DNA of 64,000 nt. Origin: Magnolia sinica. Its lineage: Eukaryota; Streptophyta; Magnoliopsida; Magnoliales; Magnoliaceae. The stretch covers positions 7,106,501 to 7,170,500 of the forward strand of contig NC_080577.1 of NCBI RefSeq assembly GCF_029962835.1. Reading direction: 5' to 3'. Position 1 is the first letter of the stretch. Every line of letters begins with the position of its first letter. The notes beneath the pieces were generated by a model. The model ran no database searches, was not told the DNA's origin, and saw only the letters and a list, made by a program, of their open reading frames with translations. Positions 5,613-49,674 of the stretch are shown here, piece by piece. Made by a program: the position numbers and the translations under genes.

Positions 5613-5613
5613 A

Positions 5614-13748: not shown

Positions 13749-13750
<2 letters not shown>

Positions 13751-19166: not shown

Positions 19167-19771
19167 ATCCCCCACATGTTTTAAAATAAACCTTTTCGGA
19201 TTAAAGCGTAATAGTTGTGCAATGGTGCCGGTGTCACCATAGACTTGAACCGACATTAGAGTAAGTAAGACAGGTCTACAGGAATCAGGTGACACCATAG
19301 TCTTGAACCTGAATCCTTTTAATGTAGATCGCAAGTACATGCCACTCACACAACTCTTCCTCTGCAAGTGATTCTGTAGTTCGGTGCGTTTCGGCCATAC
19401 ACCATTACCTGGATTTCATAAGTGCTCTAGAGAATTCGCCTAGATTCTCGTAGGAAGCGGCCTCCACCTCCACACCCATATAGGTGAATTCCATCAAGTG
19501 TATGCAGCAACTGTATACACCACCAAATATATGGATATGGATTCATTAAGAGTTCTAACAACTCATCCTTCTGCGTTGCTGCTCGCACTGTACACCATAG
19601 AAGGGGCTCATACAACTCAGTGCAATCGTCTACCTCGTGTCTTGTTGTTTACCCATTGAACCTATCTCATGGGATCTCCACTTGTATAGGTTGGGTTGCC
19701 GACACTGGCAGCTCATATATTAGGCTCAGCCCCATTCCCTTCGATGTATCATTGACTAACCTTTTAAATAG

Positions 19772-22700: not shown

Positions 22701-23600
22701 TTGTTTACAAGGAAGATTCTGACACCACAGCTACTATCATGTCAGACTCATTGCTTGTTTCTGTAAGATTAGCCTGCGGCTTATCTTTGTTTTTCTTAAG
22801 CCTGCAGGTTTTGACATGATGCCCAGGCTTTCCACAGTTGTAGCAGTTTCCCTTTTTCTTGAATTGATTGTTTGCATTCTTCTTTTTGAGCCTGCATTCA
22901 TTTGCATAATGTCCAGGTTTGCCACAGTTATGACAGTTGCCATTTTTCTTATTATTTGCCCGACTTGATTCCACAAGATTCGCCTTTGAATCTATCTCAT
23001 TTTTATTTTCTTTTTGGTCCCTGATTCTATTGGCCTCCTCTATTCGTATGTGTACGATAGTGGTTTCCAAAGAAACACCGTTCTTTTTATGTTTCATTCT
23101 ATTCTTATATTCTTTCCAGGAGGGCGGTAACTTTTCTATTAGTGCTCCTGACAGAAATACTTCATCCAACTTAATTCCTTCTGTTGATAGTTCATGAACT
23201 AGACTTTGAAAATCATGAATCTGATTTGTAAATCGTCTGTCATTTCATAATGAAGGAAATTAGCAATTGCATGTTTCTTAGCGCCTGCATCTTCTAATAT
23301 GTATTTCTTTTCCAAAGCAGTCCATATGTCTTTAGCAGACACGTAAGAAGCATACACGTCATATAGTTCGTTGGATAAAGAGTTTAGAATATAATTTTTA
23401 CAATTATTTTCATCTGTTACTTCAGTTTGATTTGCTGGATCTATAGTAAATGATTCGGTATTATGTATGAAACTTTAAGGGTGGTCAGTGCGAACATCAG
23501 TTTCTGTTTCCACCGTTTAAAGTATTGTCCAGCGAACGGTTCGATTTTGACTAACTCAGCAGAAGCATTTACTGTTACTGTAGCTATAGTCTATGTAATT
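19772..23600 (-). pseudogene. Degenerate copia gag-pol
   Basis: Read from high to low coordinates. Gag has an N-terminal part at about 23590-23170, disrupted, and two CCHC zinc knuckles (CHNCGKPGHYANEC, CYNCGKPGHHVKTC) in the frame 23169-22705. Next, after a frame change at about 22700, comes aspartic protease with DTGA, the GAG-pre-integrase HSRLGHVN and the integrase zinc-binding CETC (22699-21932). A broken gap (21931-21784) is followed by the integrase C-terminal part (21783-21502). Reverse transcriptase has AFLNGDLEEE and the YVDD active site (21420-20401). RNase H is split across 20394-19918 and 19972-19772, ending NLADPLTK. Stops or frameshifts separate nearly every block, so no full polyprotein can be made from this copy. 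Confidence 0.93.
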
Positions 23601-23620
23601 CAACAATTCGATTTCAAGAT

Positions 23621-24593
23621 TGTTGGAATATTTAGTTGAATTAAATAGACTATTAAAAATCGAGAACCAAAAAAGGAAAATAAATTTTGAGAAAGAAGAA
23701 CTTATTGAATGAGTCGAGGCGTGACTGAGTCACTCGACTTGAAATCGAATTTGCTCCCCTTGGACAGCGTCCCAAGTGCAACAGGTTCCCAGAGCAATCG
23801 ACCTCCAGGATACAACGACTATGACCCGGTCCCAGCGGTGCACTCACTGTACACGGGCTCGAACCACTTGCAGTTTAATCCGAAAGTGTTGAGTTGACTC
23901 AGCGATGAACTCAGTAGAAAATTGCTTAAAACCGAATATCAGAGAGCGTTTTATAAGAGAAGAATTTTTCGTGTATTAAAACTGGAATCGGTAGTCTTTA
24001 TATAGACTCCGAAGTGGTGCATAAGCACCCTTTACAAAAGGTTAGGTCCGTTGGGTTTAAACCCAACAGGTGCGACCAACCGGAAGGGACGCATCTCTCT
24101 GGTTTAAAACGAAAAGGCGCAAGTGCGAGTACACTCCCGCACATACAGTCCTGCGAGTACCCATACACACACCCACGCGAGTATACACACACCGCACCCG
24201 CACCCGCGCCCACGCCCAGCCCAGCCCAGCCCGTCCCGTCCCGTCGCGTCGCGCACGAGCACGCGCACGCGTACACGCACACGGACTCGGACTCGGACTC
24301 GGCTCGGCTCGGCACGGCTCGGCTCGGCTCGGCGCGCGCGCGCGTGTGTGGTCAATGGCATAGATTAGAGCTATTGGCATAGCCCCCCCACAGGACCAAA
24401 TTCACATGCCCCCTGAAAGGGGCTCAAGCCCTAAGCAAAAATACTATCTTATATACAAGATAGTTTACCTTTTCAAATCCGATGTGGGACAAAACCCACA
24501 AAAAAAAATACTACAACTTTTCAAAATTGGAGGGAAATTACCGAAAATTTGAAAATTCAAATTTTAATGATATTTTTAAAACAAAATACAACA
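23621..24593 (-). repeat. 5' LTR of the copia element (973 bp)
   Basis: Same ends as the other LTR, with the minus-strand TATA box at 23996-24005. It is 128 bp longer, almost entirely because of a GC-rich simple-sequence tract at about 24195-24352 (runs of 'cacgc', 'cccag', 'cccgt', 'gcgtc', 'ggctc', then 'gcgcgc'). Confidence 0.94.
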
Positions 24594-24936
24594 CCAATAC
24601 CGCTAGGGCCATGCAAGTCATTATTTTTATTTTTTGGCAGCCTTGAAGATCTCCAAGGGGCAAAAAGTAAGGCAAGATGGCTGGAAGTCCGGTCATTTCC
24701 CTACTGGAGATATGACCAACTACGGTCTGACAAACCTTCTCTTTTTGGGTTTCACTGATACTACATGAGTTGAGGCCTACGGGATTGACATCGTCGAAAG
24801 AAAATTTTCAAATGCTCGGATTCATTTCTAAGCATAATGGTAGAAATGAGAAGATGGATGGTTCAATTCATTGGACCATCTCAGCATGCAGGCCTCAATG
24901 ACCGGCAATTCGCACTAGATCCTGAGTTGGTGAAGG

Positions 24937-25166
24937 GAGCGGAGGTACTTACCATGAGACCCACCTTGATTTATGTATTCTATATCTATGCTGTCCATCT
25001 GTTTTTCCACATCACTTCAAGGCTTGAACCCAAAAATTAATGAAACATATCCAAATCTTAGGTGGACCATATCATACGAAACTTTCCTAAGGAATAGTTC
25101 AACTGAGACTTGGATCAGTTTCATTTTTGGAATCATTTTCTAATATGATCTTAAAAAGGATAGTGT

Positions 25167-25234
<68 letters not shown>

Positions 25235-25272
25235 AGGTGGGCCCCACGGTAAGGGACGCACCCAATCCGCTC
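24937..25272. mobile_element. GGGCCCACC-type TIR element with (AT)n core, right arm of unit 1
   Basis: Ends are GAGCGGAGGTACTTACC and, inverted, GAGCGGATTGGGTGCGTCC followed by 'ttaccgtggggcccacc'. A pure AT tract fills 25168-25232. It has copies at 47533-47874 (unit 2 right arm) and, inverted, 41682-41966 (unit 2 left arm). The unit 1 left arm lacks it. Confidence 0.7.
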
Positions 25273-25831
25273 ATGTTACCACAATGGCAAAACGGATTTG
25301 TATTGCACTTTTCTTCAATAGGCTTGCCAGAATACATCCAGATCCAATTGCTATAACACTGCTTCAACTTAGAGGTTTTAGGTGCAATTTTACATTGTTT
25401 CCATCATTTGTTTTATATGAAGATTTTTGAGGGCTGATCATTTGTGCGTACAATTAGCGTAAGGGTTCTTACATGATGGAGGTTGATTTCACACATGTAA
25501 CTTGGTGGGTCCCACACAGTGGGTGTTTTATACCCGCTACTTAAAAGCAGACACCCCCCTTACCGTCACGTGTTCTTATTGAGGCCAACCTTCTAGACGG
25601 GTTGGATGTAATACCTGAACCATGGATGGAGTAGATATTCAGTTTCTAGGTCTAACATGGGGTGACAGGCGTGATGGTTGTGGATTTTACATTAACACTA
25701 TAGTGGGGCCCATGCAAGCCAGGGATCATTTTCAAGAGACCTCTTAAAAAGCTAACGTGAAGCAAACACCCCTCTCTGTCAACATTAATTAGCATTAATT
25801 AATCTGAACAAGTGTGTAAATTGTATTTAAG

Positions 25832-26661: not shown

Positions 26662-26692
<31 letters not shown>
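26660..26692. repeat. Short (CT)n(TA)n microsatellite, unit 1 allele
   Basis: About 8 CT and 7-8 TA units. The homologous tract in unit 2 (48562-48684) is roughly four times longer. Confidence 0.9.
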
Positions 26693-27679
26693 CTGATGAA
26701 TTTCCATGTGAATAACATAATGATTACAGTTGACCAGCTGAGAGGATACCCTGAGAATGGTCCATCCATGATAGAGGCCATCAGATGAATGGATTAGATA
26801 GACCAACCATGGCCCTAGAGCTAGAAACTAAGTTACTCCAAAAGCAGGGAACTCAACCTCATTAATATTTAATTAGTTCCTCACTGAACTCCATCTGTTT
26901 TTCATTTCTCATCTTTTCCTATTTTTCTTAATTAAATATTGTTGAATATTAAGCTGTCCACAATAAGTTGTGCAATTTTTTAGAATTATTTGATATTATG
27001 GCAGAGTATGACAATTAATACACAGGCGCATTGTAGTTACACACAAGTAGCAAGCAATACCTCAATTTTTTTTTATATCCATGCCGATTGCAATGAATGG
27101 TTATGAACCTAATCCATAAGCCTTCCTTGATGCAGGCAGCATTTGGGTCAATCTCCTACTGCTTTCATACTACCTGCAATCAAACAATTCAACAACCCAG
27201 ATTTGCAGGGAATCATGTATTTGTCGGTTTTGATGCTAGATGACCATGATCGAGATCGTGTGAAGAGTGGCCCACCTTCTTAGACCCCACATGAGGAGTC
27301 TTGTGGTTGGCTGATAGTAAACTCATATAGTTTCTTTTGGTTAAATTTTCTTCTACTCCTTTGTTATTTATGCTGAGTTAATGTTTTAATTACCATTTTG
27401 GTTTACTCACTTTTAGGATATGATCAATGGTGCGCAAAACGATGGGAAACTAGTTCTTTTGAAAGCTTGTTAAATTAATTTTCCAATGAGCCAATGACCA
27501 TGTAATTCAAACATCATTTGATTCAGTGATCATGGTCGGTATCTGAAGATGTACATGCTTTCAATAAAATTTAAGGGTATTTTGTCATTTTCAATATTTG
27601 GTTGAAATTGATAGTTAAGATTAGAAGTTATGAAAGATAGTGATGAATTTAGATTAATTAGTATGAGGATTTACTATAA
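26693..27679. other. No gene; 3' flank shared with the OMT A lineage at 27560-27680
   Basis: No coding frame. 27560-27680 ('aagattagaagttatgaaagatag', 'gaatttagattaat') aligns with 8370-8520 downstream of OMT A. It is the old 3' flank of the C-type OMT gene, now separated from it by the LINE nest. Confidence 0.6.
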
Positions 27680-27747
27680 TTACTCTTATTGCATTGTTCT
27701 CTCTTATGAGAGGGTTGATTCAATTCTTCCTGCTTTGGGGTCTTTTG

Positions 27748-28436
27748 TGTTGGGATTTTGGCCAGCGGAATCACATAAATCTAGATCTAGGATAGTAATT
27801 CAATGACACCAAGCAAACACAAAGAGCACACAATGATTTAACGTGGAAAACCCTTGCGGGGAAAAACCAAGGCACAAAGAGATAAAAAATTCCACTATGA
27901 AAGCATAGATTACAAAGATAGAGGACGTACCCAGCTTAAGCAATCCTCAAGCCTCACTTTCTCTACTCCTTAAAACCCTATAACCCATTTAGAAACCCTA
28001 GCACCCTTTTAGAAACCTTAGAACCTCTTAGAATACCTCCTAGTCCCGTATCCACCTATATTTGTAGACTTAGAAACAAGTGAAAATGAAACAGGAAATT
28101 TTTTTTGCAGAATCTGCATTTCCACAAACAAATTTGCGTAAACCTTCAATGTCATCAAAGAGACTAAAAGAGACCAGCGACTAGACATGAATTTTGTGAA
28201 AAATCTTGATTCCTCGTCCTGGCTTCGATGGCATCGAACATGTCTTCGATGTCATGGAACGCCCCTCAATGTCATCGAAAAACGACACCAATATGTCCAG
28301 TGACCAACTGAAGAAATTCGAAATAAAGTCAATGTCATAGGGCTCTGTTCGATGTCATCGAAGGTGACATCAAACAGTCAATCGATAACATTGACAGACT
28401 TTGTATCAGACAAGATTTAAGATATCTAATACAATA
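27748..28436 (-). repeat. 3' LTR of the shared copia element, unit 1
   Basis: 689 bp. It contains a cluster of the imperfect palindrome TTCGATGTCATCGAA at 28222-28400. The terminal CA is mutated (element-strand start TATTG instead of TGTTG), as in all four LTRs of this family here. Confidence 0.9.
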
Positions 28437-28703
28437 ATCTCCACTATATCTTCAATCTTCAAACGTATAGCTTCTTGTCCCCTTCTCTTATCTCTGCCTC
28501 GCATCATACCTTTTAATTAATGTACCAACTCCGTCTGTCTTTTACGTCATTGCCAAGCCAAGAGAAGTTACACAAAACTTGAACTTTTATGAAAGAACGA
28601 TCTTGGTGAGCATGTCTACCAGATCTGAATCCACGTGCCCAACCACCTTTGCTCATCATGTCTTTCCAAAAGTTAAGATGTAGTTATCCGTACCTCGAAT
28701 GTA

Positions 28704-30916
28704 TCAAAGTAACCATCTCACTGCTCTCCAATGTTGCTTGTCGGGGTATTTTCTCATAACATCAATTGCCTGTGAAATAACTAGTCTAATATAGACCATG
28801 ACATGCACTGTCAACCGTATTCGAATAAGGCCCAAGAGACATGTCCTACTTTTCATCTGGTTTTGGGACATGTCCTGAGGAAAACTTGAAGTGAACCGCA
28901 CAGGGAATGCTCACCAGCTTTGCCTGGTCCATCGCATACCTACTCAAGGTATTCTACTTGTGATTACCCAAAGCTTACACCTCTTCTAGTCTCTATGAAT
29001 ATCAATGCCAAGAACCATCTTTACAGCCCCCGATCCTTCATCTTGAATGTCCCACTTAACCGAGTGTATAGTACGTTGATTCCAGACATGACATGATTGA
29101 CGATCTATATGTCATCAGCATACAATTCCTAACTCACCATGAAAGAATCTAATTTTATACCACTGCCTAGGCAACAGGTCATACCACGACCTCCTACAAA
29201 CTTTTTTTCTCAGCCCCTTTAACTTCGAACCACTCTGGTTGCTTCATGAAAAAATAACACTTTCAATTTTTCATGCAGAAGTGTTATCTCTACATCCATC
29301 CGTTCTAGCTCAAGATCACATTGGGCAACCAGCGCCAATACATATCTAATAAACACCTGCTATACCGCTGGCACGAATATCTCTGAGAAGTCGATCTGTT
29401 CTCTCTGAGGATAACCATTCACTACCAACATTGCTCTGTATATATGTTGTATCCTCTTGAAGATCCACCTGCGTCCAACTGCTTTTTGGCCCACTGGAAG
29501 CTTCACCTACTCCCATATGTCGATCTGGTACAAAGAGTCCATCACATCGTTTATAGTCACCTTCTAATTCTCAGTACCAGTCTCACCTAGAGTCATCTGA
29601 ATAGTAGACGAATCCCCCTCGTCTGTATCGACAGCATATGCAATGTTAGAGTCGTCCATGTATCTCACCGATATCCTGTGATTATGTAATGTGATTCTTC
29701 TCACAGATGGTTGCTTCTCCTGCTCTGTATCTCTGTCCGTGCATCTTAGCTATCATGCCCTACCCGCTCATGTGGCCATGCCTAACATGCCACCCACGTG
29801 CAGAGGTGGAATCCGCTGCAGCCACTGCAGCTCTACCAGTTAAAGTGCTCCCGATCAACCTGTAAAGATTATCGAGTCGTTGCGCTTTCATGTTACCCGT
29901 GCCCCCTTAGATACTTTAAAAGCACCATCAATACCTGTAAACTTGTAGCCCATTGCCTCAAGTACACCAAGAGAAATCATATTCTTCTTCATGTCGGGAA
30001 CGTGCCTCACATTAGTCAAGATATGCTCTGTCCCATCAAATATCTTGATGCTCACCGTACCAACAGCCACAACATTACATGCATTGTCATTGCTTATAAA
30101 CACCTGTCCACCATCGCACTCCCTGTAGCTGACGAATTAACTTCGATGAGGACTCATGTGAAAAGATGCTCATGTGTCTAGAATCTATTTGCCCTTATGA
30201 TGATCGTATGGGCGTCTAATTGTTGACACAGACAAGACATTACTATCACATCCACTCAATCCATCTGACGTAGTAGCATTGGCCTCCCTATACAAAGCCT
30301 CAGATTCTTCTCTCTTAGATCTAAGATTTGTACAATCCTTTTTCATGTGTCCTTCCATCTCACAGTTCCAGCACTTTAACTTACCTTTGTCATTAACCTT
30401 GGATTTGGATTTAGAACTTGAAGATCATGTACCTTGTTCAGAATTCTTGCCCCTTGTAAACAATGTATCAGAAGATGTTCCCATATCGTCATTTAACCTT
30501 CTCATGTCCTTCCCTTTAAGGGCTGAGATAACGATGTCGACACTCAGAGTTTTATTCGTTGTGCACATTATATCCTTGAATGACTCATACAATGCCGAAA
30601 GAGAATTCAGCAACATACATTCTTGTTCCTCATCTTTCATCACTTCCTCCATATTCAACAATTTATAAACTAATTTATTAAAGTTGCTGATGTGAGCCTC
30701 CAGATCTCCACCCTCTGCTATCTTAAAGTTATACCATTGACGCTTCAAGTGTAGGGAATTTTCAGAGAATTTTTTCGCATGGATATCCTCTAACTTCGCC
30801 CATAACTTAGCCGCAGTTTTCTCCCTCATGACATTATAGAGAACCTTATCCGTAAGAAATAAACGGATCGAGGATAAGACTTTCTTATTAAGGGTGTCCC
30901 AATCATTATCAGTCAT
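28704..30916 (-). pseudogene. Copia gag-pol remnant lacking the integrase core, unit 1
   Basis: From high to low coordinates. A gag-like frame at 30916-30425 has the words WDTLNKKV, LWAKLEDIHA and LLNSLSALYESF. A CCHC knuckle (CWNCEMEGHMKKDC) lies at about 30332-30373. Protease-region words (HILTNVRHVPDMKKNMISLG) follow at 30103-29888. Reverse-transcriptase pieces (GRRWIFKR, a degenerate YADD box) lie at about 29560-29050. The last piece is RNase H-side (28901-28704). No integrase catalytic core is present between protease and RT, so the element has an internal deletion as well as many stops. Confidence 0.85.
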
Positions 30917-31086
30917 AGTAGACTTTTACTCCTCAAGAGCACCATCTTCACCTTGCTTGATTAAGGAACTGATCATCTTTATTTTCTATAACTCAAAGTT
31001 ATTTTTTCCTGATTACTTCTCAATATCATACCTAGTGCTTTCCATTATTGTTAATCCTTTAGATTCAGATCTGTGCCCCAACGATT

Positions 31087-31098
31087 GCTCTGATACCA
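31087..31098 (-). other. Primer-binding site of the shared copia element, unit 1
   Basis: Minus strand TGGTATCAGAGC, two bases inside the 5' LTR, complementary to the 3' end of plant initiator Met tRNA. Confidence 0.85.
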
Positions 31099-31100
31099 CT

Positions 31101-31791
31101 TGTTGGGATTTTGGCTTGTGGAATCACGCAGATCTACATCTAGGATAACAATTCAATGGCACCAAGCAAACAAAAATAGTACACAACGATTTAACGTGAA
31201 AAACCCTTGCGGGGAAAAATCACGGCACAAAACGATAGAAATTTTAACAATAAAAGCATAGATTACAAAGATAGAGGACTTACCCAGCTTGAGCAATCCT
31301 CAAATCTCACTTTTTCTACCCCTTGAAACCCTAGAGCCCTTTTAGAAACCCTAGCACCCTTTTAGAAATCTTAGAAACTCTTAGAATACCTCCTAGTCCT
31401 GTATTCACCCCTATTTATAGACTTAGAAACAAGTGGAAACAAAACGAAAAACAAAATTCGCAGAATTTGCGTTTCCACAAACGAATCTGCGTAAATCTTT
31501 GATGTCATCGAAGAGACACTAAAAGAGACCAGCGACTAGACATGGATTTTGTAGAAAATCTCGATTCCTCGTTCTGGCTTCGATGGCATCGAACATGTCT
31601 TCGATGTCATCGAACGCCCCTCGATGTCATCGAAAAACGACACCAATATGTCCAGTGACCAATTGAGGAAATTCGGAATAAGTTCGATGTCATAGAGCTC
31701 TATTCGATGTCATCGAAGGTGACATCAAATAGTCAATCAATGGCATCGACAGACTCTGTTTCAGACAAGATTTAAGACATCTAATACAATA
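31101..31791 (-). repeat. 5' LTR of the shared copia element, unit 1
   Basis: 691 bp. It differs from its partner LTR at many more positions than the two LTRs of the private copia element do, consistent with greater age. It carries the TTCGATGTCATCGAA cluster at about 31576-31755. Confidence 0.9.
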
Positions 31792-32496
31792 TTTTGCCGT
31801 TGCTCATCCTATGGGATGGGTGGGCTGAACACAACATGGCTCAGTTTGCAGACAAGCTTGAACCCCGTCTGGAGTCATCCTTAATTTTAACCAAAGGTAG
31901 GTTAAGAGCTATTGGAGGCTCAATGTTGATGGCTCGAGATTGCTCCCTCCCTCTCCATTCAAATTTTGGGTGTTCCTGTGGCCCATGTGGCCCATCGGAG
32001 AAAGAAAGAGGCAGTTTGTGTGAAGTGGATTCTGACCATGAGAGATGGTTTAAACTCAATGTTGATGGCTTGTATAAGCAAGAGCGGTTTTTAAGGGATT
32101 TCTAAATCCCTTAAATTCTATAAAACAACCATAACTTTTTATTCAAGTATCATCACAAAGCACATGACCTATCGATCTTTACGTAACGCTGCATTCACGG
32201 TCTACCAACCTGCTATGTTAGTCGAAAAAGTCCATTTCGCAAGAAAATGCATGTCTTCGAAGTTAAAATCAAGATTTTATTTTTAAAAAAAATATACTAT
32301 TTTTTTATTTGCAATTTTTATATTCATCGCATCTCCCTTTTTTTAGTTTTAAGATTTTCATCTTTTTTTTTAAAAAAAAAAAGTTGCTTGCGATAATATC
32401 AGGAATGCTTGGTAAGATCTTATTGTCGTTTCTATTTTTGACAAATTTAGTCAATTAGGAAGATTTTACTATTTCAAGTAATTTCTACTCGACTTA

Positions 32497-32799
32497 GGGC
32501 CCATTTGGATACCGCCAAATAAGTTACTTTTTCTACTTACAGCAGTATAAGTAACATATTTTAGATAAGTAAGTTTGGTTTGTGATTAGTTATAAGTAAT
32601 TTTTTTTACTTAAAAGTACTTAATCACTTCAATTAAATTGTGTGTATCCTTAGGGAATATTAATCTCACATAAAAAAGGGTGGGTACATCTGTATTTTCA
32701 AAAAAAATAAAAAAATTGTTGTAGAAAAGAAGCACAGGAGAAATGAAATAGAGGTGGCACAAGTAACTTATCTTAAGCAACTTACAATCTAAATGCCCC
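32497..32799. mobile_element. Tourist-like (PIF/Harbinger) MITE, 303 bp, unit 1
   Basis: TSD TTA (32494-32496 and 32800-32802). Ends are GGGCCCATTTGGAT and, inverted, GGGGCATTTAGATT. Subterminal 'aagttac' and 'agtaactt' words are characteristic of GGGCCCRTTTGG-type plant MITEs. Confidence 0.75.
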
Positions 32800-33628
32800 T
32801 TACGGTTTTGGTCATTAATATAAGTGATCTAATCGAATAATCTTATATTATTATGTAATAAAATATTTGAATTTGTCTCTCTTATTTCTCGATCATAGAT
32901 TAAAAAACTTGTATATTTAAGGTCTTAATTACTTGAGGAAGACAGTGATCTTCTTTTTGTCACTTCGTACTCTTCCATATGTCAGGGGCATGCATTAGCT
33001 AGTGCTCCTAAGCAAGGCAGTGTCTTCTCTTGTGGTTGGGTTTTTGTTGGTGGATTTTTTTTATTTTTGTTTCCTTTTTTCTGCCTATTGTGTAGGTAGT
33101 AGTTTTTTTTTCTATGGGTTGATGTGTGCCCTTTAGATGTTATGTATTGTATTGGTTTTAGGTCTTTTGGTCCATATGATAGGTGTGGCCGTTTATTTCT
33201 GTTAGGCCCACCAGAAGTTTCTTTTGTAAATTTTCTACCCTTCAATAAATTTCTGGTGGTGTGTTACCACCTTCCTTTAAATAAAATAAAATGAACAGTG
33301 TTAACATAGGCCACCCTTGTAACCTTTAACTGGAAGCATACTAACACCTAACAATATCACGATAATCTGAACCGTTCATCCACTGTGCCTAATCATACAT
33401 TGGCGATTTCAAAAAAGAGAGAAAAAAATAAAATAAAAATCACCCTACAATCCTAACCACAAATTCTATTTCATAGAATAACACTAGGATTAAACACGTC
33501 CACAAACATAGATGACCATCACTCGCAAGCCCAATACATAGACACCATTTGATAAATCCAAAGGTGTTCTTATTCTAGAATTAATACTTAAACTAGCAAC
33601 AAGCTAAACATTGCAAACCACCAAATAA

Positions 33629-33900
33629 TTACGGATAGACCTCGATAATGGACTGCGTACCAAGGACGGGTGTAATCTTGTAGTGAGTGAAACCAGCATC
33701 AATGAACATCTTTTGCCATTCGTGCTCCTCCCTCTCCTTCCCGCAAAGGAGAACCAGCACCGCCAGATCAAATAAGAGCTGCATCTCCGTCATCTTGTAA
33801 TCGTCCCTGTTCATGTTCACAACCATGTCCAGTATAATCACCTTCCCACCCTCTTCTTTAGAAGATATCGCTTCCTTGCATCTTCTAAGTATTTTCACGC
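33629..33900 (-). pseudogene. Truncated O-methyltransferase exon 2 (copy D) at the duplication junction
   Basis: 90 codons plus stop, equal to residues 11-100 of exon 2 of gene C with five substitutions (Ala for Ser in KEAISS, Arg, Met, Phe and Gln at later sites). The acidic and GKER residues remain. The catalytic-His segment WVLHDW, the splice acceptor, exon 1 and the promoter are missing. At 33900/33901 the exon changes abruptly into the sequence that starts the duplicated block (ATGAATACAT). With no upstream exon on the minus strand it cannot make an enzyme. It is the scar of the large tandem duplication. Confidence 0.93.
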
Positions 33901-34582
33901 ATGAATACATAGATGGTTTTCTCATCTTTTAAAATTATAAGTTTACCACCAAAATATGTATATGGCTTGTGAACCTTTAAAACTTACTAAATTATGTTTC
34001 AATCTAAGAAGTACTCTAGTAAATTTATTCAAAGAAATGTGAGAATCATCACAATGATTTTTGAGTGTCCCAATTAGCGGATCCAGGTATGATGTATAGT
34101 TAAATGATAAAATATAGGTAAAATAATCAAACAATTAAGATTCTAATCCCATATACATGTTAATGTACAATTACTTACATACTTAGATATGTGCAAAAAG
34201 GGTTTTTAGTTGATCAGATAGCTGGATCATCGGATAAATGGCTTAAATGATTAAACCACAATCCTAAAAAATAGATGGATGAGTGGGTGACTGCATACCC
34301 TATATGGCGTATGAATGGTTGGATTTAGTGTATATTTTATGATTAGATTTAAGCTACTTAATAAATGAACAATTGATTTTATGTATATAATTAAAGAGAG
34401 TGCACGTATACATATATCTATACATATACTAAAACCATACAATTATCAATTAACGATACATTCTAAATAAATCAATCACACATATCACAACTTGCATACT
34501 CTATGCATGTATGCATGCATGAATAAATGGAAGGAGAATGCATGAATGTTTAGATGGATGTAAGTGTGCATATATGCACACT

Positions 34583-34716
34583 ATGGCATGGGGTTTCAGT
34601 CCTTGCCTTAGTGATAGACTCTGAGGAGTTTCAACATGAGGTCTTGGGTTTGAAACCCATAGGTGGTGAAATCCCACTACGACGTGCGTGGGTGTGTGTG
34701 TAAATTAAAAAAAAAA
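34583..34716 (+). mobile_element. tRNA-derived SINE, unit 2 copy
   Basis: Same element as at 6283, with B box GGTTTGAAACC (CpG lost) and an A-rich rather than T-rich end after 'gtgtgtgtaaat'. Confidence 0.65.
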
Positions 34717-35472
34717 AAGTGTGTATGTATGCAGATACATGCATGTGCACCAAAATCTCAGGTCATCACATTTTATCCCCTTATAAATAATTTGTCCTCA
34801 AAATTTAAACACACTCAGCTTGTGGATGGGAGAGGATACTCCTCCTGATTAACGGTGTGTTTGAGTGTCTGCTAAGTTCTATATGTTGTAGGGTTTAAGC
34901 GGGCGCAAGAGTGTGCAAATCCCTACAGGAATTGGGGTTATTACAACTATCATATTGAGAAAAAATCCTTTTATATGAAAGGTAAAAAGAAATCATTAGA
35001 AGGTCTAATTTTATCCTTCACAAATCATTTAATTTTTTTATAGGTGGCTGAATAGATGGCCAAACTACCTCATTTCTCGATCATAAACGACCGTTTACGG
35101 TCATTCTATCTATCTCGACGCTTAGGGTTATATGTGTTCGGTTCGAATTGAGCTGTAAAAGGTTCTAGCACACCTGACACTAAGGGTGAAAGTCGGGCGG
35201 GTTGGTGCTCAACCGTAGCCTAACCCAAGGTTCCTATAGCTCAACCCTAACCCAACCCAACCTAACCTCAGGTTGGAACCCAAAGTTCCTAGTCGTTGGA
35301 CGGCCATGATTGTGGATGATGTCCAATGTGCCCGGCTAAGCAGTACTCTTGAGAGATGGAATTTGCGAAGTAAAACCAATGGTTACATGGGTGGGCTTGA
35401 GCTTACAATAGCCCATGGATTTCCTCACATTAGATAATTAAGCTCCACCACTAACTCAAGGGCCCATTCGTT

Positions 35473-36013
35473 ACTACCCCACCAAGACCTAGCTAGAGAT
35501 GGACGGTCCCCTGTCAGGGGTTCTGTGGGGCCCACCATGATATATATGTTTTATCCATGTAGTCCATTTATTATGAAAGATCATTTTAGGGGCATGAGCC
35601 TAAAAAGAAGGAAGATTAAAGGTTCAAGTGGACCACACAACAGGAATCAGTGGGGATTGAAGTCTTACTGTTGAAAACTTCTTTGGGGCACAGAAGTCAA
35701 AGAAGTTTTGGATCAAGTTGATATTTATGCTTGCCTTTAATACAGGTCTATGCGATTGCGACCTTATAAAAAGGTTGAATGGCAAATAAACATCATGGTG
35801 GGCCCTAGGAAGTTTTCAACCGTAGGAATTCAATTCCCACCGCTTCCTGTCGTGTGGCATACATGAGCCTTTAATCTGCCTTCTTTTTGGACTTATGCCT
35901 TAAAATGATCTGTCAAAATGGATAGACTGCATGGATAAACCATATACACCACGGTGGGCCCCACAGATCCACTAGCAGGACCGTCCGTCTCTAGCAGGTC
36001 CTGGTGGAGTAGT
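35473..36013. mobile_element. 541-bp GGGCCCACC TIR element, unit 2 copy
   Basis: Same length and ends as 7184-7724, with few substitutions. Confidence 0.75.
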
Positions 36014-36138
36014 ACACTTGTACCCAGTCCGCTCCCCTAACCACATACATCATACATATAGTCACCCGCGCGCACGCTTTACATCAGATAGCTAATCCTA
36101 CCCGATAGGTGCAGCAACAGGTTGGACGCCACTTCGGT

Positions 36139-36579
36139 GGATCACCGGATCCACCTAAACTGTGAGGCCACTTTGATGTATATGCCTTATATCCGTTCCG
36201 TCCATCCATTTCGACAGCTCATTTTATGCTATGATACCAAAAAATGTAGCAGATTCAAATCTCATGTGGACCACGCAACAGGAAAAGGTGGTGATTGAAC
36301 TTTGTGGAGACCATAAAAGTTTTGGATCAAGCTGATATTTATGTGGTCTTTCATTCAGGTGTATGTGAACTGTATCAACAGGTTGGATGGAAAATAAATA
36401 TTATCACGGTGGGCTGCACAATCAGGGATCCATCGTATGTGGATGTTTCCCAGTGTACTTTGCTGCTCTCCGGAATTGAAAACAAGACTTTCCAATTTGA
36501 TATTATGTTAAACGGCCACTTTCTAAAGGCTCAGCCATTAGATGATGGCATATCAATGTTTACCGAGGGACTTTAACAA
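36139..36579. mobile_element. Truncated TIR-element relative, unit 2 copy
   Basis: Copy of 7850-8290. The 93-residue frame at 36295-36576 is conserved only because the DNA is nearly identical; no family resemblance was seen. Confidence 0.5.
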
Positions 36580-37151
36580 TAAATGAGGCATATTTTGTAC
36601 AGAAATATTGCTATTTCAACGAAGTTAAAAGTATGTGCTCTCAGTACTTGAAAATAATAAAAAGCTTTTGATAAAATTAAGGAATATTTTATCATTTTTA
36701 ATAAAATATTGAAGTTGATGTTTAAGATTAAAAGTTATGAAAGATAGTAGAGAATTTAGATTAATCAATGTTAGCATTTACTATAAATATGTTAGGATTT
36801 ACTTTAAATATTGTAACTGAATATGATGCTAACATAAGCCACCTTTTGTAACCTTTGATTGGAAGCATCATTATTAGCAACGCCCAACAATTTCACAGTA
36901 ATCTGAACTGTTCATCCAGTGTGCTTCACCATGCATCGGCCACTTCCAAAAAGAGAAAAACATAAACCAAAACGAATCTCCCAACAATTCCAACCACAAA
37001 TTCCATTACGGATGAAACACGTACACAAACATAGAGGCCCATTTCATAAGCCCAGTACATAGACACCATTTAATAAATCCATGCATAGGTGTTCTTAATT
37101 CTAGAATTAGCTGAACTAGCAACAAAATAAACACTGCAAACCATCAAATAA

Positions 37152-38080
37152 TTATGGATAGACCTCGATAATGGACCGCACACCAAGGATGGGTGTAATC
37201 GTGTAGTGAGTGAAACCAGCTTCGATGAAGATCTTTCTCCATTCATGTTCATTCCTCTCCTTCCCGCTAGCGAGAACCATCATCATTAGATCGAAGAAGA
37301 GCTGTGTCTCCGTCAACTTGTAATCGCCATTGTTCATGTTCACGACCATGTCCAGTATAATCACCTTCCCTCCCTCTTCTTTTGAAGGGATTGCTTCCTT
37401 GCATCGTCTCAGTATCTTCACGCACTCTTCGTCACTCCAATCGTGTAGAATCCACTGCAGTCCATTGTCATGATTGTTAATTACCCTTTGTTGGCCACAA
37501 TTTAGGATATGGAGGGATGTGATGATTTGAAGAAAGAGGGTACAGCGCTATTAGTGTTAGCTTCGTCATTAGGCATTCAGAGTTTTGGTATGTGTGGTCT
37601 GTGGTTATGAAATCTGTACCTTCCATCTGGTGAGGTTTATCATGGATAGGGTGTAGACCAAAATCAGAAGCTGTTGGTTGAACATAACTTCTGATTGGAT
37701 GGCCAAGAGATTAGCAATTGGGAAAGAGTCCAGACGATGGTTGACATTCATTAGGCAAAAACAATGGTTGACATTCATTAAGCAAAAACTCCTCCAATCA
37801 ATGGCTAATATCATCCAATTGGGAATTTTGACACAAAAATAGAAATAATAAGGTATTGCCCCAGTACCATAAGTAGAGCTAAGCATTGAGTCGAGTCGAG
37901 TTAGACCAAGTTAGGGAGCCGACTCGATCTAGTTTTGAAATAGGCCTGACTCAAACTCAACTCGACTCGTTACTAAGTCCAGCATGCCTGATCTGATCTA
38001 AGTCCAGGTCTCGCTTGGACTAATCCGGACCGAGTCCGACCTGGTCAAAAGTACCAAGTCTAGTCGAGTTGGCACCAAGT

Positions 38081-38137
<57 letters not shown>

Positions 38138-38227
38138 CTGATGGTGGTGGGTGGCTGTCAGGCTTGGAAGAGGAGAGAGAGAGAGAGGACTAGGGTGCTG
38201 ATGGTGGTGGGTGGCTGTCGAGCTTGG

Positions 38228-38295
<68 letters not shown>

Positions 38296-40755
38296 GGGTG
38301 TTGATGGTGGTGGGTGGTTGCCGAGCTTGGAAGAGGAGAAGGATGGGGAAGAGAGAGAGTTTGGGATCAAGTCAGGGTTGAATTCGGGTGTGGCGAATAG
38401 GGTTAGATACACTTAGAAATTATGACTTTTTATTATATATACTCGAATTCGAGTCGAGATGGGTTTCAGATCGAGTTGAGTTTGACCGGATCAAGTTTTA
38501 GGTCAAGTTAGGTCGGGTTACTGGATAACTCGGACTTGACTCGATTTGAGTTCGAATTAGGCAAAGCCTACTCGGTTCAGACCGATTCACCCATTCGGTT
38601 CGGATCAAGTCAGGTCTGAACGAGTCGGATAAGTCGAGTCAAGCGAGTCAAGTCATCGCTCGCCCAACTCTAACCATAAGCTCATCATGCTGCACAATGT
38701 CTTATGTAGGAAATTAGGTCTATGGAGAAGGTTGTCCTCATTATTACATCACTTGTAAATAAAATCTGGCCAATCAAAGCAGTAGGTGGGCCACACCACC
38801 ATAAATAGACCAGACTAATCAGTGGGTCAACCTTTAGCACGGATTGGATTTTCTGAAACATGTGACTTATTAGTGGAAAATCATGTGCAGTGCGATAAGC
38901 TTAATAGTCTCTAATGCTATTGTCAAGAATTGGTTGGTGGGTGACATATATGGGGTGACGAGTGATTGAGGTGACACCGCAAAGCCAATCATATCTCTTC
39001 CTTGTGTTTTGACCACTTGTAATAGAAATTCCTCAAATCCAAATATATAAATGCATTGAAATTTTGTTGTATATTTTCAAGAATTTAAATTTAATTATTA
39101 AATTAAATTTAATATCCTTAATTAATGTATATATGTGATCTTTAACAAAATAATTATAGTAAACTCCATTGAAATATATATTTGGTTAAAATTGATAAAA
39201 TCCAACCTCAAATGGGAAAGAGTCATAAGATTACAAACGGGTGACTTGCTAATGTTTTTTTAACCATTGTTAGTATTTGACTATTTAGATCATTCTGTTA
39301 ACATAATTTTAGTGACAGGGTTGATAATTATTTTGTTTTAAAGCATCATTAGTATGTTACATGTACAATCAATTAATAGCCTATTAACACTTTTGTTACT
39401 CATGCGACTCTAATGCCATTAAAGGAAAAAACCATTTAATTTAGAATTATGTAAGGACGTGGAAGCAGTGTATTTCAAATGCCTTCCTACACAATCAAAA
39501 ACCTTTTGAATTCTGAATTCATTCAAATTCACGTTGCCTGACAACCCCTCGCATCAAAGAGGCCAATTGACAAATCTGAACAGATCATTAGGTGGGCCAC
39601 CATGTGAAAATCACACTAATTAGACAGTTCGAAACACTCAACCAATGTCTTATGAATTGGTCAGACAGGATGACTTATAAAAATAGGCCAAATCTATAAT
39701 TTAAACCCACCATTGTTGGAACATGGGAGACTGAATCTTCCAAAATCTCCTTCTTTTTTTTTTGTCCACTCTTTCCTGTGAAGGTGGGCCGGAATCTCAT
39801 CCGGCATGTGCATAAGTATTCTCGCTGTGGGTAACACCAACTAAAAATGGTTAGATACAAGGCCCACCAACATATGTGATGGTGACAGTCGTGATACAAG
39901 CTCAGACGACCATTTAGATTGCTTATTGTAGTGGAATATTCTACTCTGAAATGGTAAACTGTAAGGAATATGAAATACCTTGAGGAAAACTGCATCTGCA
40001 GAAGGGATGGACGCAAACATGTTCCCTCCAACTATATCTATGTTCTGACTCTTTGGCACGCTTGCAACCACGTGTGGTAGATCAAACAAGGTGCACTTCA
40101 CGTGTGGGAACGACTCGGCGATGGTCCCGGCAGCAGTTCCCGTGCCACCCCCAACATCAACCAATGACCGCAACCCTTGGAAGACCGGACTGCACTCTTT
40201 AATAATGATGCTCATGGCTAGCCGAGCGTCACAAGCCATGGCCTCATTAAAGAAGTTGTTAAGATCAGGGTTCTGGGCCATGCGTTCCCACACGCCCGTC
40301 CTGTGCACAACATGAAAGGGCGTTGGATCGTCCCCTAAGAACCAAGTGTTCAAGAAGTGCCATGGCTTTACTAGAACTGGGTCTAGCATCATCATCAAAA
40401 ATGGCGAAATGCACGTAGCTGTGTCCTTCAAGAGGAGCCTAGAAGAAGGTGTGAGCACATAACCTTCTTTGTCTCCTCCTTGATCGTCGTTGATTTCTTG
40501 TACAGCGAAGAAACCCGAGTGGACCAGCAAACGCATGAGGCGGCCCACATGGGCCGCTCTACTGGGAGCGATCGAAAGCGCGGCCACCAGCTGGGGGAGA
40601 GTCATGGGACAGCCATGGCTGTGAACGATGTCTGGTATGCCGAGTTGAACGGCACACTTGAGGGACATGGAATTAATGAAGTTAAACAAATGGTTCCATA
40701 CATGGGCTTGGGCTTTCAACACCCCATTGGCCTCATCTCCTTGCATAAGCACCAT
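37152..40755 (-). CDS. O-methyltransferase gene B (two exons, 359 aa), duplicate of gene A
   Basis: Join of 40755-39979 and 37454-37152, with the same splice sites and phase as gene A. Exon 2 appears identical to gene A in protein sequence. Exon 1 differs at about 12 of 259 residues, five of them clustered at residues 9-14 (A: THDLLN; B: ANGVLK). The SAM motif LVDVGGGTGT (198-207), Asp225, catalytic His263, Asp294, Glu325 and C-terminal SIIEVYP are all present. It has Asn245, like A. The upstream TATA box and promoter are conserved, so it is probably an expressed functional paralogue. The 2.5-kb intron holds a complete hAT element. It likely methylates the same or a closely related phenolic substrate as A; the identity cannot be read from sequence. 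Confidence 0.94.
37455..39978 (-). other. Intron of OMT gene B
   Basis: 2524 bp. Donor and acceptor are as in gene A. It contains the intact hAT element 37874-38672 and about 80 bp of flank (37795-37873) that gene A has lost. Confidence 0.9.
37874..38672. mobile_element. Complete hAT-type element (799 bp) in the intron of OMT B
   Basis: 8-bp TSD ACCATAAG (37866-37873, 38673-38680). Ends are TAGAGCTAAGCA and, inverted, TAGAGTTGGGCG. The core has GA tracts at 38082-38135 and 38233-38293. It is the same family as 63126-63920, with the shared 'gatggtggtgggtgg' and 'gggttagatacacttag' type words. Confidence 0.9.
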
Positions 40756-41260
40756 CGTTCACTCACTTCTCAAACTACTGATTTTTATTTTATTTTTTTT
40801 CTTTTAACTTTCCTCTTCCTTTGAGAACTCACGTTTCAAGCTCTTCCAGGGAACGTACCCACGCACACCGTATATATAGAGGGAGCATCGAATACTCCGG
40901 CAGAGAGTTTGTACAGCATGATTTTGGTTTCAGCTAGTACAAGCAAGGCAGGTGATTCAGAAATCCAAACCGTTGATATCTTGGATAGCATCTCCACTAT
41001 GATTGGAAGATCCTAGCTCTAGAATATTTGACCTTTTTTGGTTGAATATGAAGCTTTCTTGTATTTTCATTCTTAACCATCTATTTTATAGACACCTGTC
41101 GAATTGTTTGCAAACTACAATCTTAGAGATATTTCGTGCATGCTAACTCCTTGATGGGGTCTACAATATCAAGGGCATAGATCAATGAACTAGCTGCACC
41201 AGTTGTACCAGTACAAACTGTGCACGAGCATTGTATTACACATGTTGTATGCAAGAGGCA
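40756..41260 (-). promoter_or_regulatory. 5' UTR and promoter of OMT B, with TATA box at 40871-40879
   Basis: Nearly identical to the region upstream of gene A. The minus-strand TATA CTATATATA lies about 115 bp upstream of the start codon. Confidence 0.6.
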
Positions 41261-41681
41261 TGTTATTCACGTGTTACATCCAAACACGCAAAAGCGTATT
41301 ATGGGATATGATGATCACCAAATCACCCCAAATTATTACTTAAAGCGTGGTGCTAATCACGTGTTTTTTTTGGACGGAATCGTCTACAACATCTGCTTTT
41401 GATTAAGCAGCGGGTAATTAAAACACCCACGCTGTGTGGGTCCCACCAAGTTGCATGTGTGAAATCAACCTCCAACATGTGAGCTAGAACCCTAACGCTA
41501 ACTGTACGTACAAACGATCAGCCTCAAAAGTCTTCATATAAACCGAATGATAGAAACAATATAAAATTACACCTAAAACCTCAAAGTTGAAGCAGTGTTA
41601 TAGCAATTGGATCTGGATGTATTCTGGCAAGCCTATTGAAGAAAAGTGCAATACAAATCCGTTTTGCCAGTGTGGCAACTT

Positions 41682-42579: not shown

Positions 42580-43234
42580 GAAAAGGTTCTATGCAGTCAA
42601 GCTCATGGGAACTTCCTATGAGGTTGAGCAATGTGGGCCCCACTGTGATGCATGTCGAACATCTACCCCATCAGTCAGATGCACTATTCCATGGTGGGCC
42701 TAGGGCTTAAAAATCAATGTCAATCTGTGACTTGTCTGGGCCACACAACATACAAAAGTTGAGATGGGTTACCCTCCATTAAAACATTCATAATCATTTG
42801 TTAGGCCCACAGAGATGTGGTTCACAAATCCAGCTCATCCATTATGTGTATCCCACTTGGATGAGGGGTCAGACCAAGTTTCAAATGCATCCAAATTTCA
42901 GGTGAGCCCCACCAAGTGCTTTTATATGTTTTAGGTACGTCTTCACATGATTTTAGATGGTATGGCCCACCTGAGTTCAGTATACAGCTGATTTTTTGGA
43001 TGTCCCATAATTTAAAGGGGACCCATCAAATACACGGTTTTGATGTTCGACATACATCACGGTGGGGCCCACGCAGCTCGACCTCATGGGAAGTGCATAG
43101 AACCTTTTCCCTTTATTTAAATATATAAACATTTACGAAATGTTTATATTAAGTGAACTCCAGTCGATATATTAAGTGAACTCCGGTCGAGTCAAGCGAG
43201 TTAACCGAGCTAACTCAGTTCGTGTACAGCTCTA
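42319..43234. mobile_element. hAT-type element interrupted by a nested TIR element, unit 2 left arm
   Basis: Near-perfect 8-bp TSD (GGGATGGA 42311-42318, GGGATGGG 43235-43242). Ends are TAGAGATGTACA and, inverted, TAGAGCTGTACA. A (TA)n tract (about 42525-42577) and the nested element 42578-43111 lie inside. A 22-bp local duplication ('attaagtgaactcc') is at about 43150-43190. Confidence 0.82.
42578..43111. mobile_element. 534-bp TIR element nested in the hAT element, unit 2
   Basis: Ends GGGAAAAGGTTCTATGCA and exact inverse. Copy of 13749-14283. Confidence 0.8.
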
Positions 43235-44138
43235 GGGATGGGCCGGCCTTTATATATAGGGCCATATACATAAATGGAACAGCAGGTGTAGGTTTCTGTC
43301 TCTGGAGGCCTACAGCCATGTCCAGACCCATTTGTTGACACCCAGCATTTTATACACGTGGGGCTTACTGCTTGGTGATCAAATTTGTTCACATGACGGA
43401 TCTCTTTGGATGAAAGATGCCATAGAATTCTACGATTGGAGAGCCCACAAGAATGAATGGCTAATATTAAAATATAACATTAATGACCCGCACTAAGTAG
43501 AAAAAAGGGCAAATTATCAGAGGGTTAGGATATTTCATTCTAAGAAATTTGTGGACATCTCCCATTCATTCATGGTAGTACTAGCGGGACCCATAGCTCA
43601 ACAGCTTGGACTAGGACCCATGCATACTACACCAACACTGTGTACATAAGACGTTTGCTGATCAGCAGAAACCTATAATTCCTTCCCTTGGGCCAGAGGC
43701 TCCAACCCAAGTCCAGGGGATGAGTTCTAGAGAGGGTAGCCATGGTTCATACATTGGGTGGAGAAAAAGTTGAGTTTTAATGCAATCACTATCTCCAGAG
43801 AAAAATGGATAAATATCTCGACAACCCAATAAGCAAAGATCTATGAGCTAGAACTTTTATTTTAGTATTTTATTATTTATATCTTATTGTCTCTTTATGA
43901 ATTGGACAGATCTTTGATATTTTATTTAAAAATTGAATATAATAGATAGCACCTTAATTGATAAAATAATAAAGCATTATTTACAAAATGACTTGGTATT
44001 GCATATTTGCATTGTCATTGTCATGATACTCAAAAAGGCATCAACAAGGCCCCTACAAGACAAGCCGTGGAGCATGTGGTTTAATTTAATCTAAAGCTAA
44101 AAACCTTTAGGCAGTCTTCAAATGCTGCCAAGCTGCTT

Positions 44139-45887
44139 AGAAGAAAAGAGTGCCTTCAAACCCATCCCACTTTGAACTTGTCCCCACCGGAAGATAATGA
44201 TCTAACCATCTGATTTTAGAAATATGATCTGTCCACTAGATACATGCCAATGTCACATATATGGGTTAACATCCATTCTATTTTCCATTGGACAATTAGG
44301 CGATGTGATAGGTGAGGCCCAACGTTCTTGTGCAGCCCACGTGAAAGTACAGTTTGCACATCCTTGTCTTTATTTTAACAAAGATACAGGGGTCGTGTCC
44401 CCACTTTAAAAATAAAAAATGAATCGCTAGTGACCTGCCGCCAGCCAATGGCTAGTGGTCGGTACTCTGTGGGACCCACCATGATGTATGTGTTTCATCT
44501 ATGCCATTCATTTTCACGTGTTGGATCATTGAAGATGACCCTAAATCCAAAGGTTAAAGTACCTAACTCTCGCAACACCTGCCGGATGCGTTCCAGCCAA
44601 CCACCTGTGTGAATCACGCCTTACAATGTTACCATCATTTTATTCTAGCTGTGTGAATCACACCTTATAATCATTTCGTTGTCTACATAGATATGACCCA
44701 TATTTTCATTTATTATTTATTTTAAGAGGCCGAGTTCTCTATTCACTCAAGAACTTAGTTTCTAGATGTTGGGCCCATGATTCCTTCATGCAAGCTAGCT
44801 ATCATCCTATGGACGATTCCCCAAAATATTCCAGATTAAAATATCCTAAATATATATAGCTGGACACTCCATTTTCGTCCAACTAGTTAGCATATAATGA
44901 GAAAAAATTCCCCTTCCATACATCACACGCAATTATATTGAAGGTAATTACTTATTCATTAATGTAAATAAATGCATTAGTAAATGCTTTGTTAAAAACT
45001 TATTTGACTTATGGAAAAGGGGTTATGGCTCGGGTGGGCCGCACCATAGTATTAATGTGAAATCCAGCCCAACCACTAAGTGTGTCACCTCGTGCTAGAC
45101 CTAGGGCTCAAAAATTATCACCATCCCAGTTTAGGTGGTCCATACGATTTTAAATAGTGTATGGGAAAGATTCTGGCTCCAAACTCTTTCCCTTGCTGTG
45201 TCCCACTTGAAGTACATATAGGCCTGATTTTTGTGATCAAAGCCTAACCTTGGGTGTGGAATCTAATGGATGGAGTGGATTTCTCATACTCATCACGATG
45301 GGCCTTATAAAAACCAATGGTAGATGTCTCTCTCAAATATTCTATTAGTGTGGCCCAACCAAAATCAAAAGTCAACCTTATTTATAGGCTCTAGACGTAT
45401 AACGAGATTATACGTCTAATGGTCGTACTGGATCTCACATAGGCATCATGGTGGACCCCATAAAAATAAGGTCAGGTCGTACCGTAAATTTTGTTTTACT
45501 GAAGGTTCCCGGTACAGTGAGCTGGACTATAGGTTAAAGTCCAGCCAGCTTACAATTCCCAATCTTTCTTGTACATATGACATCAAACTCGTCTAATAAA
45601 TTGGCCATCATGATCATCCTATTTTGGAAAATACGTATGTAAAAGACACTTATTAGTGGACCACACTTTTGTTTGGTTATTTACCCATGTCTGGTGGATG
45701 TTTTATAGTGTGGCCCACTTAATTTTCAGGTAAGACTGACCTTTCTATTACATGATCCTTATAGTGGAGCTAACCTGTTGGAAGGCCTGGATGTAAATTT
45801 CACACAATACCTCGGATGTTATGGTATAGTTGGACGGTCCAACTAGTTGATTCATTTAAATCAATTAATGATAATTGATTCATTTAA
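44139..45887. other. Spacer between inverted-repeat arms, unit 2
   Basis: Copy of 15286-17031. No gene. Confidence 0.5.
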
Positions 45888-46754
45888 GCGGCTTGGCAGC
45901 ATATGAAGACTGCCTAAAGGTTTTTAGCTTTAGATTAAATTAAACTATATGCTCCACCGCGGGGCTTTGTTGATGCCTTTGAGTATCATGCCAATGCAAA
46001 TATGCAACGACAAGTCGTTAATTAATTAAAGCTTTATTATTTTATCAATTAAGGTACTACGTACTATATTCAATTTTTAAATAACGTATCAAAGATCTGT
46101 CTAATTCATAAAGATTCAATAAGATATAATTAATAAATTACTAAAATAAAAGTCTTAACTGGTATATCTTTGCTTATTGGGTAGTTGAGATATTTATCCA
46201 TTAATCTCTGGATATGGTGATTGCGTTAAAACTCAACTTTTTCCCCACCTAATGTATGAACCATGGCCACCCTCTCTAGAACTCATCCCCTGGACCAAGG
46301 TTAGAGCCTCTGCCCCAAGGGAGGAATTATAGGTTCCTGCTGATCAGCAAACGTATTACATAACACGGTGTTGTGGTGTAGTATGCATGGGTCCTGGTCC
46401 AAGCTGTTGAGCTATGGATCCCACTAGTACTACCATGGATGAATGGGAGATGTCCACAAATTTCTTAGAATGAAATATCCTAACCCTATGATGATTTGCC
46501 CTTTTTTCTACTTAGTGCATGTCATTAATGTTATATTTTAATATTAGCCATTCATTCTTGTGGGGTATCCAATCGTAGAATTCTATGGCATCTTTCATCC
46601 AAAGAGGTCCGTCATGTGAACAAACTTGATCACCAAGCAGTAGGCCCCACGTGTATAAAATGTTTGGACACGGCTGTAGGCTTCCAGAGACAGAAACCTA
46701 CACCTGCTGCTCCATTTATCTATATGGCCCTATATTTAAAGGTGGCCCCATCCC

Positions 46755-47112
46755 TAGAGAGCTGTACATGAGCCGAGTTAGCTCGGTTAACTCGGTTGAC
46801 TCCAAAAAACATTACTCAACTCGACTTAAAACTGAGTTCAAGCCGAGTCAAGCTGATTTTTTGAGCCTAGTTCAAGCTAGACCGAGCTCAACTTGACTCG
46901 AAGTTGACTCAGTTCGAATCCATTCGACTCGGATCGAGTTCACTTAATATAAATATTATGTAAATGTTTATATATTTAAATAAATTATAAATTATAATAT
47001 ATATATAAAACTCTAAAACCAAGCCGAGCTGAGTTCGAGCTGAGGTAGCTTACTGTTCAAGCCGAGCCGAGCTGGGCCAAGCTTGACTCAGTTCAACTCG
47101 TGTACAGCTCTA
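46755..47112. mobile_element. Non-autonomous hAT-type element (358 bp), unit 2 right arm
   Basis: TSD CCCATCCC at 46747-46754 and 47113-47120. Same element as 17887-18239. Confidence 0.87.
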
Positions 47113-47532
47113 CCCATCCCTATAGGTTAACAATGTAGCCTGAGCCTGGTGGGCCTTTGTACAAACCCGCTCCATTGAGAAATAGAGTTCCAATACCGCT
47201 GGGGCCATGCAAGTCATTATTTTTATTTTTTGGCAGCCTTGAAGATCTCCAAGGGGCAAAAAGGAAGGCACGATGGCTGGAAGTCCGGTCATTTCCCTAC
47301 TGGAGATATGAGCAACTACGATCTGACAAACGTTCTCTTTTTTGGTTTCACTGATACTACATGAGTTGAGGCCTACGTGATTGACATCATCAAAAGAAAA
47401 TTTTCAAATGCTCGAATTCATTTCTAAGCATAATGGTAGTAATGAGAAGATGGATGGTTCAATTCATTGGACCATCTCAGCATGCAGGCCTCAATGACCG
47501 GCAATTCGCACTAGATCCTGAGTTGGTGAAGG

Positions 47533-48558: not shown

Positions 48559-49674
<1,116 letters not shown>

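Follow-up and report, generated by a model that had tools for sequence, protein, structure and literature searches.

Within a 64,000-bp stretch of Magnolia sinica DNA, here called the window (C5:7106501-7170500), an exon of an O-methyltransferase (OMT) gene passes abruptly into the inside of a dispersed repeat. The question raised by this locus is how the two came to be joined: by recombination between repeats, at a transposon end, by non-homologous joining of DNA ends, or only in the assembly. We addressed it by comparing the window with itself, and by searching the whole genome (1,838,573,281 bases in 127 contigs) for other copies of the sequences on either side of the join.

Two tandem units and the junction between them

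Self-BLAST of the window revealed direct-orientation matches of 5609-13333 with 33897-41675 at 95.5% and of 26676-33901 with 48668-55897 at 95.6%, together with intermediate direct blocks between the same two units at 13695-18321 and 24594-25551. These matches describe direct head-to-tail copies with a single novel junction, to which the following features belong:

5613-33900, no strand assigned: first copy of the duplication unit (U1), 28,288 bp including a later Copia insertion
33901-55896, no strand assigned: second copy of the duplication unit (U2), 21,996 bp
33900/33901, no strand assigned: novel junction of exon 2 of OMT gene C (left) with the inside of a dispersed repeat (right), from a three-way comparison
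5612/5613, no strand assigned: left parental breakpoint, about 611-623 bp inside the dispersed repeat
4990-6660, no strand assigned: dispersed repeat with the left breakpoint, right end approximate; its part from 5613 recurs in U2 from 33901
55896/55897, no strand assigned: right parental breakpoint, 30 nt into the second exon of OMT gene C

Viewed base by base, the 41 bases up to 33901 show four mismatches with the 41 bases up to 55897, and the 41 bases from 33901 show two with the 41 bases from 5613. No base is inserted at the join, and because A33901 belongs to both parent sequences, the switch is placed at 33900/33901 to within 1 bp. A preliminary description of this DNA had proposed a tandem duplication of about 22 kb with a breakpoint inside an OMT exon, a switch at 33900/33901 to the sequence that begins at 5613, and a continuation of the same exon in gene C at 55896. 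The self-BLAST copies, the 41-base comparisons and the position of the right break within exon 2 of gene C (55625-55927) bear out all of these. The proposed size is right for U2 but not for U1, which is longer mainly because of the Copia insertion at 18322-24588.

Among the 40 scored matches (of 104 candidates) that a 401-bp query across the join gave in the whole genome, only the window itself covered the query in full, and both parental sites are present and unbroken. The right site is uninterrupted in gene C and in its paralogues C' (C5:6456094-6456294) and C'' (C14:81987745-81987945). For the left site, 20 repeat copies were fetched, the best-scoring of the 30 other right-half matches listed for the junction query; 18 of them align in one piece over 5560-5680 (three from 5562, and a few with small indels), and the remaining two, L021 and L027, do not. 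The 33900/33901 junction is the derived state.

The repeat that holds the left breakpoint was characterized further with the query 4700-5612, for which 40 of 1,542 candidates were scored. Among the 40 other matches, 36 start at query positions 291-303, corresponding approximately to 4990-5002 of the window, and 36 extend at least as far as query position 902, at or just short of the breakpoint. Terminal inverted repeats were not evident in this repeat.

The O-methyltransferase genes and the truncated copy

The coding features of the locus, all on the minus strand, are:

8863-9165, minus strand: OMT gene A, exon 2, from exon-structure comparison
11623-12399, minus strand: OMT gene A, exon 1, from exon structure and Pfam
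37152-37454, minus strand: OMT gene B (duplicate of A), exon 2, from exon-structure comparison
39979-40755, minus strand: OMT gene B, exon 1, from exon structure and Pfam
55625-55927, minus strand: OMT gene C, exon 2, from exon-structure comparison
57652-58428, minus strand: OMT gene C, exon 1, with a GT donor; 359-aa protein together with exon 2; Pfam PF00891 and PF08100
33629-33901, minus strand: D, a 3' stump of exon 2, 91 codons including the stop, open frame

The exons of A, B and C are open and joined by GT/AG splice sites. The exon-1 reading frames of all three carry the Pfam methyltransferase and dimerisation domains (PF00891 and PF08100), and the three genes are accordingly predicted to encode plant O-methyltransferases, of the type known as plant class II O-methyltransferases. 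The C protein aligns over residues 3-359 with its closest solved chain, PoOMT1 (PDB 9waz), at 461.9 bits, a full-length likeness; the matches found are relatives and not the magnolia proteins themselves. In keeping with the proposal that the event created one new full gene (the A/B pair) and one truncated scar, A and B are both intact at 359 aa each, and D is left with its 91 codons.

Comparison of A with B gave a dN/dS of 0.30, based on 12.5 synonymous and 13.5 nonsynonymous changes. Exon 2 accounts for 2 synonymous and 0 nonsynonymous changes, and exon 1 for 10.5 and 13.5, respectively. Six of the 26 coding differences fall within 18 bp in codons 9-14 (12358-12375 and 40714-40731), three changes on each branch, a concentration with a probability of 0.0004 under random placement; conversion from other OMT copies or selection on the N-terminus could be responsible.

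The OMT cluster extends beyond the window, with matches to gene C spread over about 0.8 Mb of C5 (6.41-7.19 Mb) on both strands, and a 92% copy of gene C lies at C14:81.98 Mb. The intron of gene C contains a high-copy palindromic element (56139-56655) with many genome sites at 86-90% and distant relatives at 7233-7676 and 60241-60622. No tRNA gene was predicted by ARAGORN.

D corresponds in frame to the last 91 codons of C and is found 3.25 kb downstream of gene B, in the orientation of that gene. Missing from D are the first ten codons of exon 2 and its splice acceptor, the whole of exon 1, and the promoter region of C. D begins 3' of the HDW motif, the histidine of which has a catalytic role, and so has no full catalytic domain with HDW. 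D and C are separated by 4 synonymous and 5 nonsynonymous changes. When C' and C'' serve as outgroups and the changes are polarised by eye, the D branch receives 3 nonsynonymous and 2 synonymous changes and the C branch 2 and 2; with A/B as outgroup instead, some of them move to the other branch. So small a number of codon changes does not demonstrate that D evolves without constraint. Nor does it suffice to decide between alleles and duplicates, and selection on D versus C was set aside as a test of allelism.

The intact frame of D was considered as a sign of function and rejected, because, given five neutral substitutions and indels at the observed rate, a neutral frame as long as D would remain without stop or indel with a probability of about 0.62. 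Cut off from exon 1 and from the promoter, D very probably does nothing. We think it scarcely probable that D serves as a cryptic alternative last exon of read-through transcripts from B, or as a source of small RNAs against C-type OMT genes; if it did, the edge of the duplication would have made a regulator of its own gene family.

The duplication falls between a block copy and a Copia insertion

The age of the duplication relative to other events was assessed from two retrotransposons and from a paralogous block on C5. The retrotransposons are:

18322-24588, minus strand: Copia LTR retrotransposon, in U1 only, 6,267 bp, target-site duplication CCAAT, LTR K2P 0.016
27748-31791, minus strand: older Copia element, in both units, with its U2 counterpart at about 49740-53790

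The element found only in U1 carries a reverse transcriptase domain (PF07727), its LTRs differ at 13 of 840 sites, and its empty site is preserved in U2 at 47190-47194. Because the K2P of its LTRs is lower than the divergence between U1 and U2, it postdates the duplication. The older element, which contains a copia-type gag, shows the opposite relationship: K2P is 0.055 between the two left LTRs and 0.039 between the two right LTRs, compared with 0.12-0.14 between left and right, and since the four LTRs pair by position, the element predates the duplication.

Outside the older element, U1 and U2 differ at 445 of 16,774 columns (K2P 0.027), and inside it at 200 of 4,039 (K2P 0.052). These values set aside 454 ill-aligned columns in two stretches with 104 differences; over all aligned columns, 749 of 21,267 differ. 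Divergence along the part without transposable elements is uneven (chi2 63.4, 33 df, p 0.001), as measured in 34 of 46 intervals after omission of eight in the older Copia, three ill-aligned and one short adjoining interval (239 columns, 4 differences). Simple neutral divergence would not give such unevenness, to which constraint or conversion, among other causes, may contribute. At 14483-15483 the two units differ by only about 1% (10 of 999 columns). The arms of an inverted repeat, about 0.95 kb in length and 86-87% similar, occur at 14338-15292 and 17023-17923 in U1 and at 43189-44145 and 45879-46802 in U2.

A search of C5:6415000-6474999 located an unduplicated counterpart of the locus at C5:6432406-6460378, which holds one A' and one C' in the order and orientation seen in the window and no tandem duplication. 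K2P is 0.057 for A/A' and 0.058 for B/A', compared with 0.027 for A/B; it is 0.063 for C/C' and 0.068 for D/C', compared with 0.031 for D/C. The block copies are thus older than the tandem duplication. Distances to the C14 copy are 0.076 for C and 0.078 for D. Changes since the duplication are evenly distributed, with 31 in A and 34 in B, and 14 in D and 12 in C with 2 unassigned. The block is silent on the left parental site because its alignment starts only at 7006. The order of events is therefore a copying of the paralogous block, then the tandem duplication, and then the Copia insertion in U1.

The older Copia is absent from both paralogous blocks, even though its LTR difference (0.13-0.14) exceeds the difference between block paralogues (0.06). 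To account for this excess, the element would have to evolve at about twice the rate of the sequence around it, and the comparison of U1 with U2 suggests that it does.

How the junction may have formed

The exact sequence shared at the junction is 1 bp, and at least that much was found in 46% of 200,000 random joins. A window of five bases touching the join matches at four positions, ACGTA in the left parent against ACGCA in the right parent and the junction, for which random joins give a probability of 0.057. The base at 5612 is T in 18 of the 19 repeat copies that have a base there, and both C paralogues carry ACGCA at the right site, so the mismatch very probably predates the event. A perfect ancestral microhomology of 5 bp that was mutated later was considered, and the T at 5612 in those 18 copies argues against it. 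Extended homology between the breakpoints was not found: the best match between 3-kb stretches centred on each was 12 bp (E 0.44), and 1-5612 gave no match to 55897-64000 at E 0.01.

The preliminary description had suggested 1-3 bp of microhomology and, on that ground, end joining or microhomology repair without crossing over between repeats. That sharing is minimal was correct, and its extent can now be given as exactly 1 bp, or as 4 of 5 with an internal mismatch. The preference for joining over crossing over is upheld by the lack of alignable homology around the breakpoints beyond short, chance-level matches. One exactly shared base gives a microhomology pathway no advantage over plain end joining. 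Polymerase-theta joining with mismatched microhomology, as described in PMC13015775, is allowed by the data, but a single event close to the 5% level is no demonstration of it.

These observations lead us to regard a single tandem duplication, head to tail and about 22 kb long, produced by non-homologous joining, as the highly probable origin of the locus. A DNA end within exon 2 of gene C would have been joined to one within the dispersed repeat 22 kb to the left, probably on the sister chromatid or the homologue. The join may have been made by end joining, of the classical or the polymerase-theta type, or by a replication template switch, pathways that the sequence does not separate. Its outcome would be the intact duplicates A and B, an untouched gene C and the stump D.

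Unequal crossing over between repeats (NAHR), for instance between the OMT paralogues A and C, had its substrate at hand, since direct A/C paralogous segments lie about 18 kb apart within one unit (36827-37651 with 55295-56124 at 81%, and 39726-41235 with 57390-58910 at 82%). Such an exchange, however, would yield a hybrid of A and C, with the crossover falling within homologous sequence. Next to D there is instead a copy of 5613-8510, a stretch outside the paralogous segment, and after it a complete copy of A (gene B); the breakpoints share 1 bp, and their flanks share nothing above chance. Because the flanks lack shared homology, recombination between repeats in the window, including the OMT paralogues, does not explain the junction. 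We hold NAHR to be very improbable as its origin: it is refuted for the repeats examined, and repeats farther away would be relevant only together with a second deletion. Such a two-step history, in which a larger duplication, perhaps by homology, was followed by a deletion that joined exon 2 of C to the repeat, would leave the same junction, but two events and a pair of homologous sequences would be required for it. Such a pair is absent from the comparison of the window's outer parts given above, and the query 5000-6700 found no match in C5:7170400-7200100 and a single inverted match of 93 bp in C5:7096600-7106599, so that we judge this course improbable. A mechanism acting at transposon ends, such as reversed-ends or other alternative transposition, was proposed from the position of the left breakpoint inside a dispersed repeat and from the repeat matches of the junction query, whose starts all fall at query 192-206, right at the junction. 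This alignment of starts is an effect of the query edge: matches to 4700-5612 span to the breakpoint, and repeat copies cross 5613, which rules the model out as proposed. Since some 620 bp of the repeat lie between its terminus and the break, transposon-end models fail, and their probability is in our view very small.

An artefact of assembly, either through diverged haplotypes strung head to tail or through a chimeric read that spans the junction, was weighed in addition. The sequenced tree is heterozygous at 1.21%, and the divergence of 2.7% between U1 and U2 is only about twice this value and uneven. The genome report (PMC10999834) describes about 100x ONT data, Hi-C correction of misjoins, gap filling, and scaffold gaps set to 100 bp, while the window contains no N. 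A misjoin induced by repeats is not expected because the joined sequences share nothing, and the assembly would presumably have needed a read that crosses the join. Furthermore, the K2P of 0.027-0.031, about half of the distance to the paralogous block (0.057-0.068), is large for alleles. A haplotype misjoin at the junction thus appears unlikely, and an artefact of either kind improbable.

Non-homologous tandem duplication, as the preferred reading, makes the locus a clean case of a known type, ordinary in kind. It offers a single-event snapshot, at base resolution, of an OMT cluster gaining a gene in a tree, in which homologous substrates adjoining the breakpoint were not used. The ancestral sequence of the joint can be inferred because both parental sites and the unduplicated paralogous block survive. 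It is an ordinary example of plant gene family growth and changes no general view. The junction is not treated in the literature found, as judged by titles and the beginnings of abstracts, which is no proof that it is unpublished; in the main text of the M. sinica genome paper (PMC10999834), the word 'tandem' does not occur.

Comparable events have been catalogued in rice (PMC4812662), where 4,872 of 9,196 CNVs (52.98%) were attributed to non-homologous recombination and 44 (0.48%) to NAHR, and 27 non-co-linear CNV genes to NHEJ (14), transposable elements (12) and NAHR (1). The magnolia junction, with minimal homology, resembles the commonest class there. The rice catalogue was built from deletions relative to a reference, whereas here one tandem duplication, older and larger, interrupts a gene at its edge. 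Reversed-ends transposition of maize Ac yields direct duplications in tandem whose junction is formed by a transposon end (PMC3744419). The magnolia duplication is likewise head-to-tail and likewise has a transposon or repeat copy at one breakpoint, but the Ac junctions lie at a transposon terminus with an 8-bp target-site duplication, while the magnolia break lies 611-623 bp inside its repeat. Tandem duplications in Drosophila yakuba make partial or chimeric genes (PMC5460883), and in them, as here, altered gene structures arise at the duplication edge. What sets D apart is that only the 3' part of its gene survives, exon 1 and the splice acceptor being absent.
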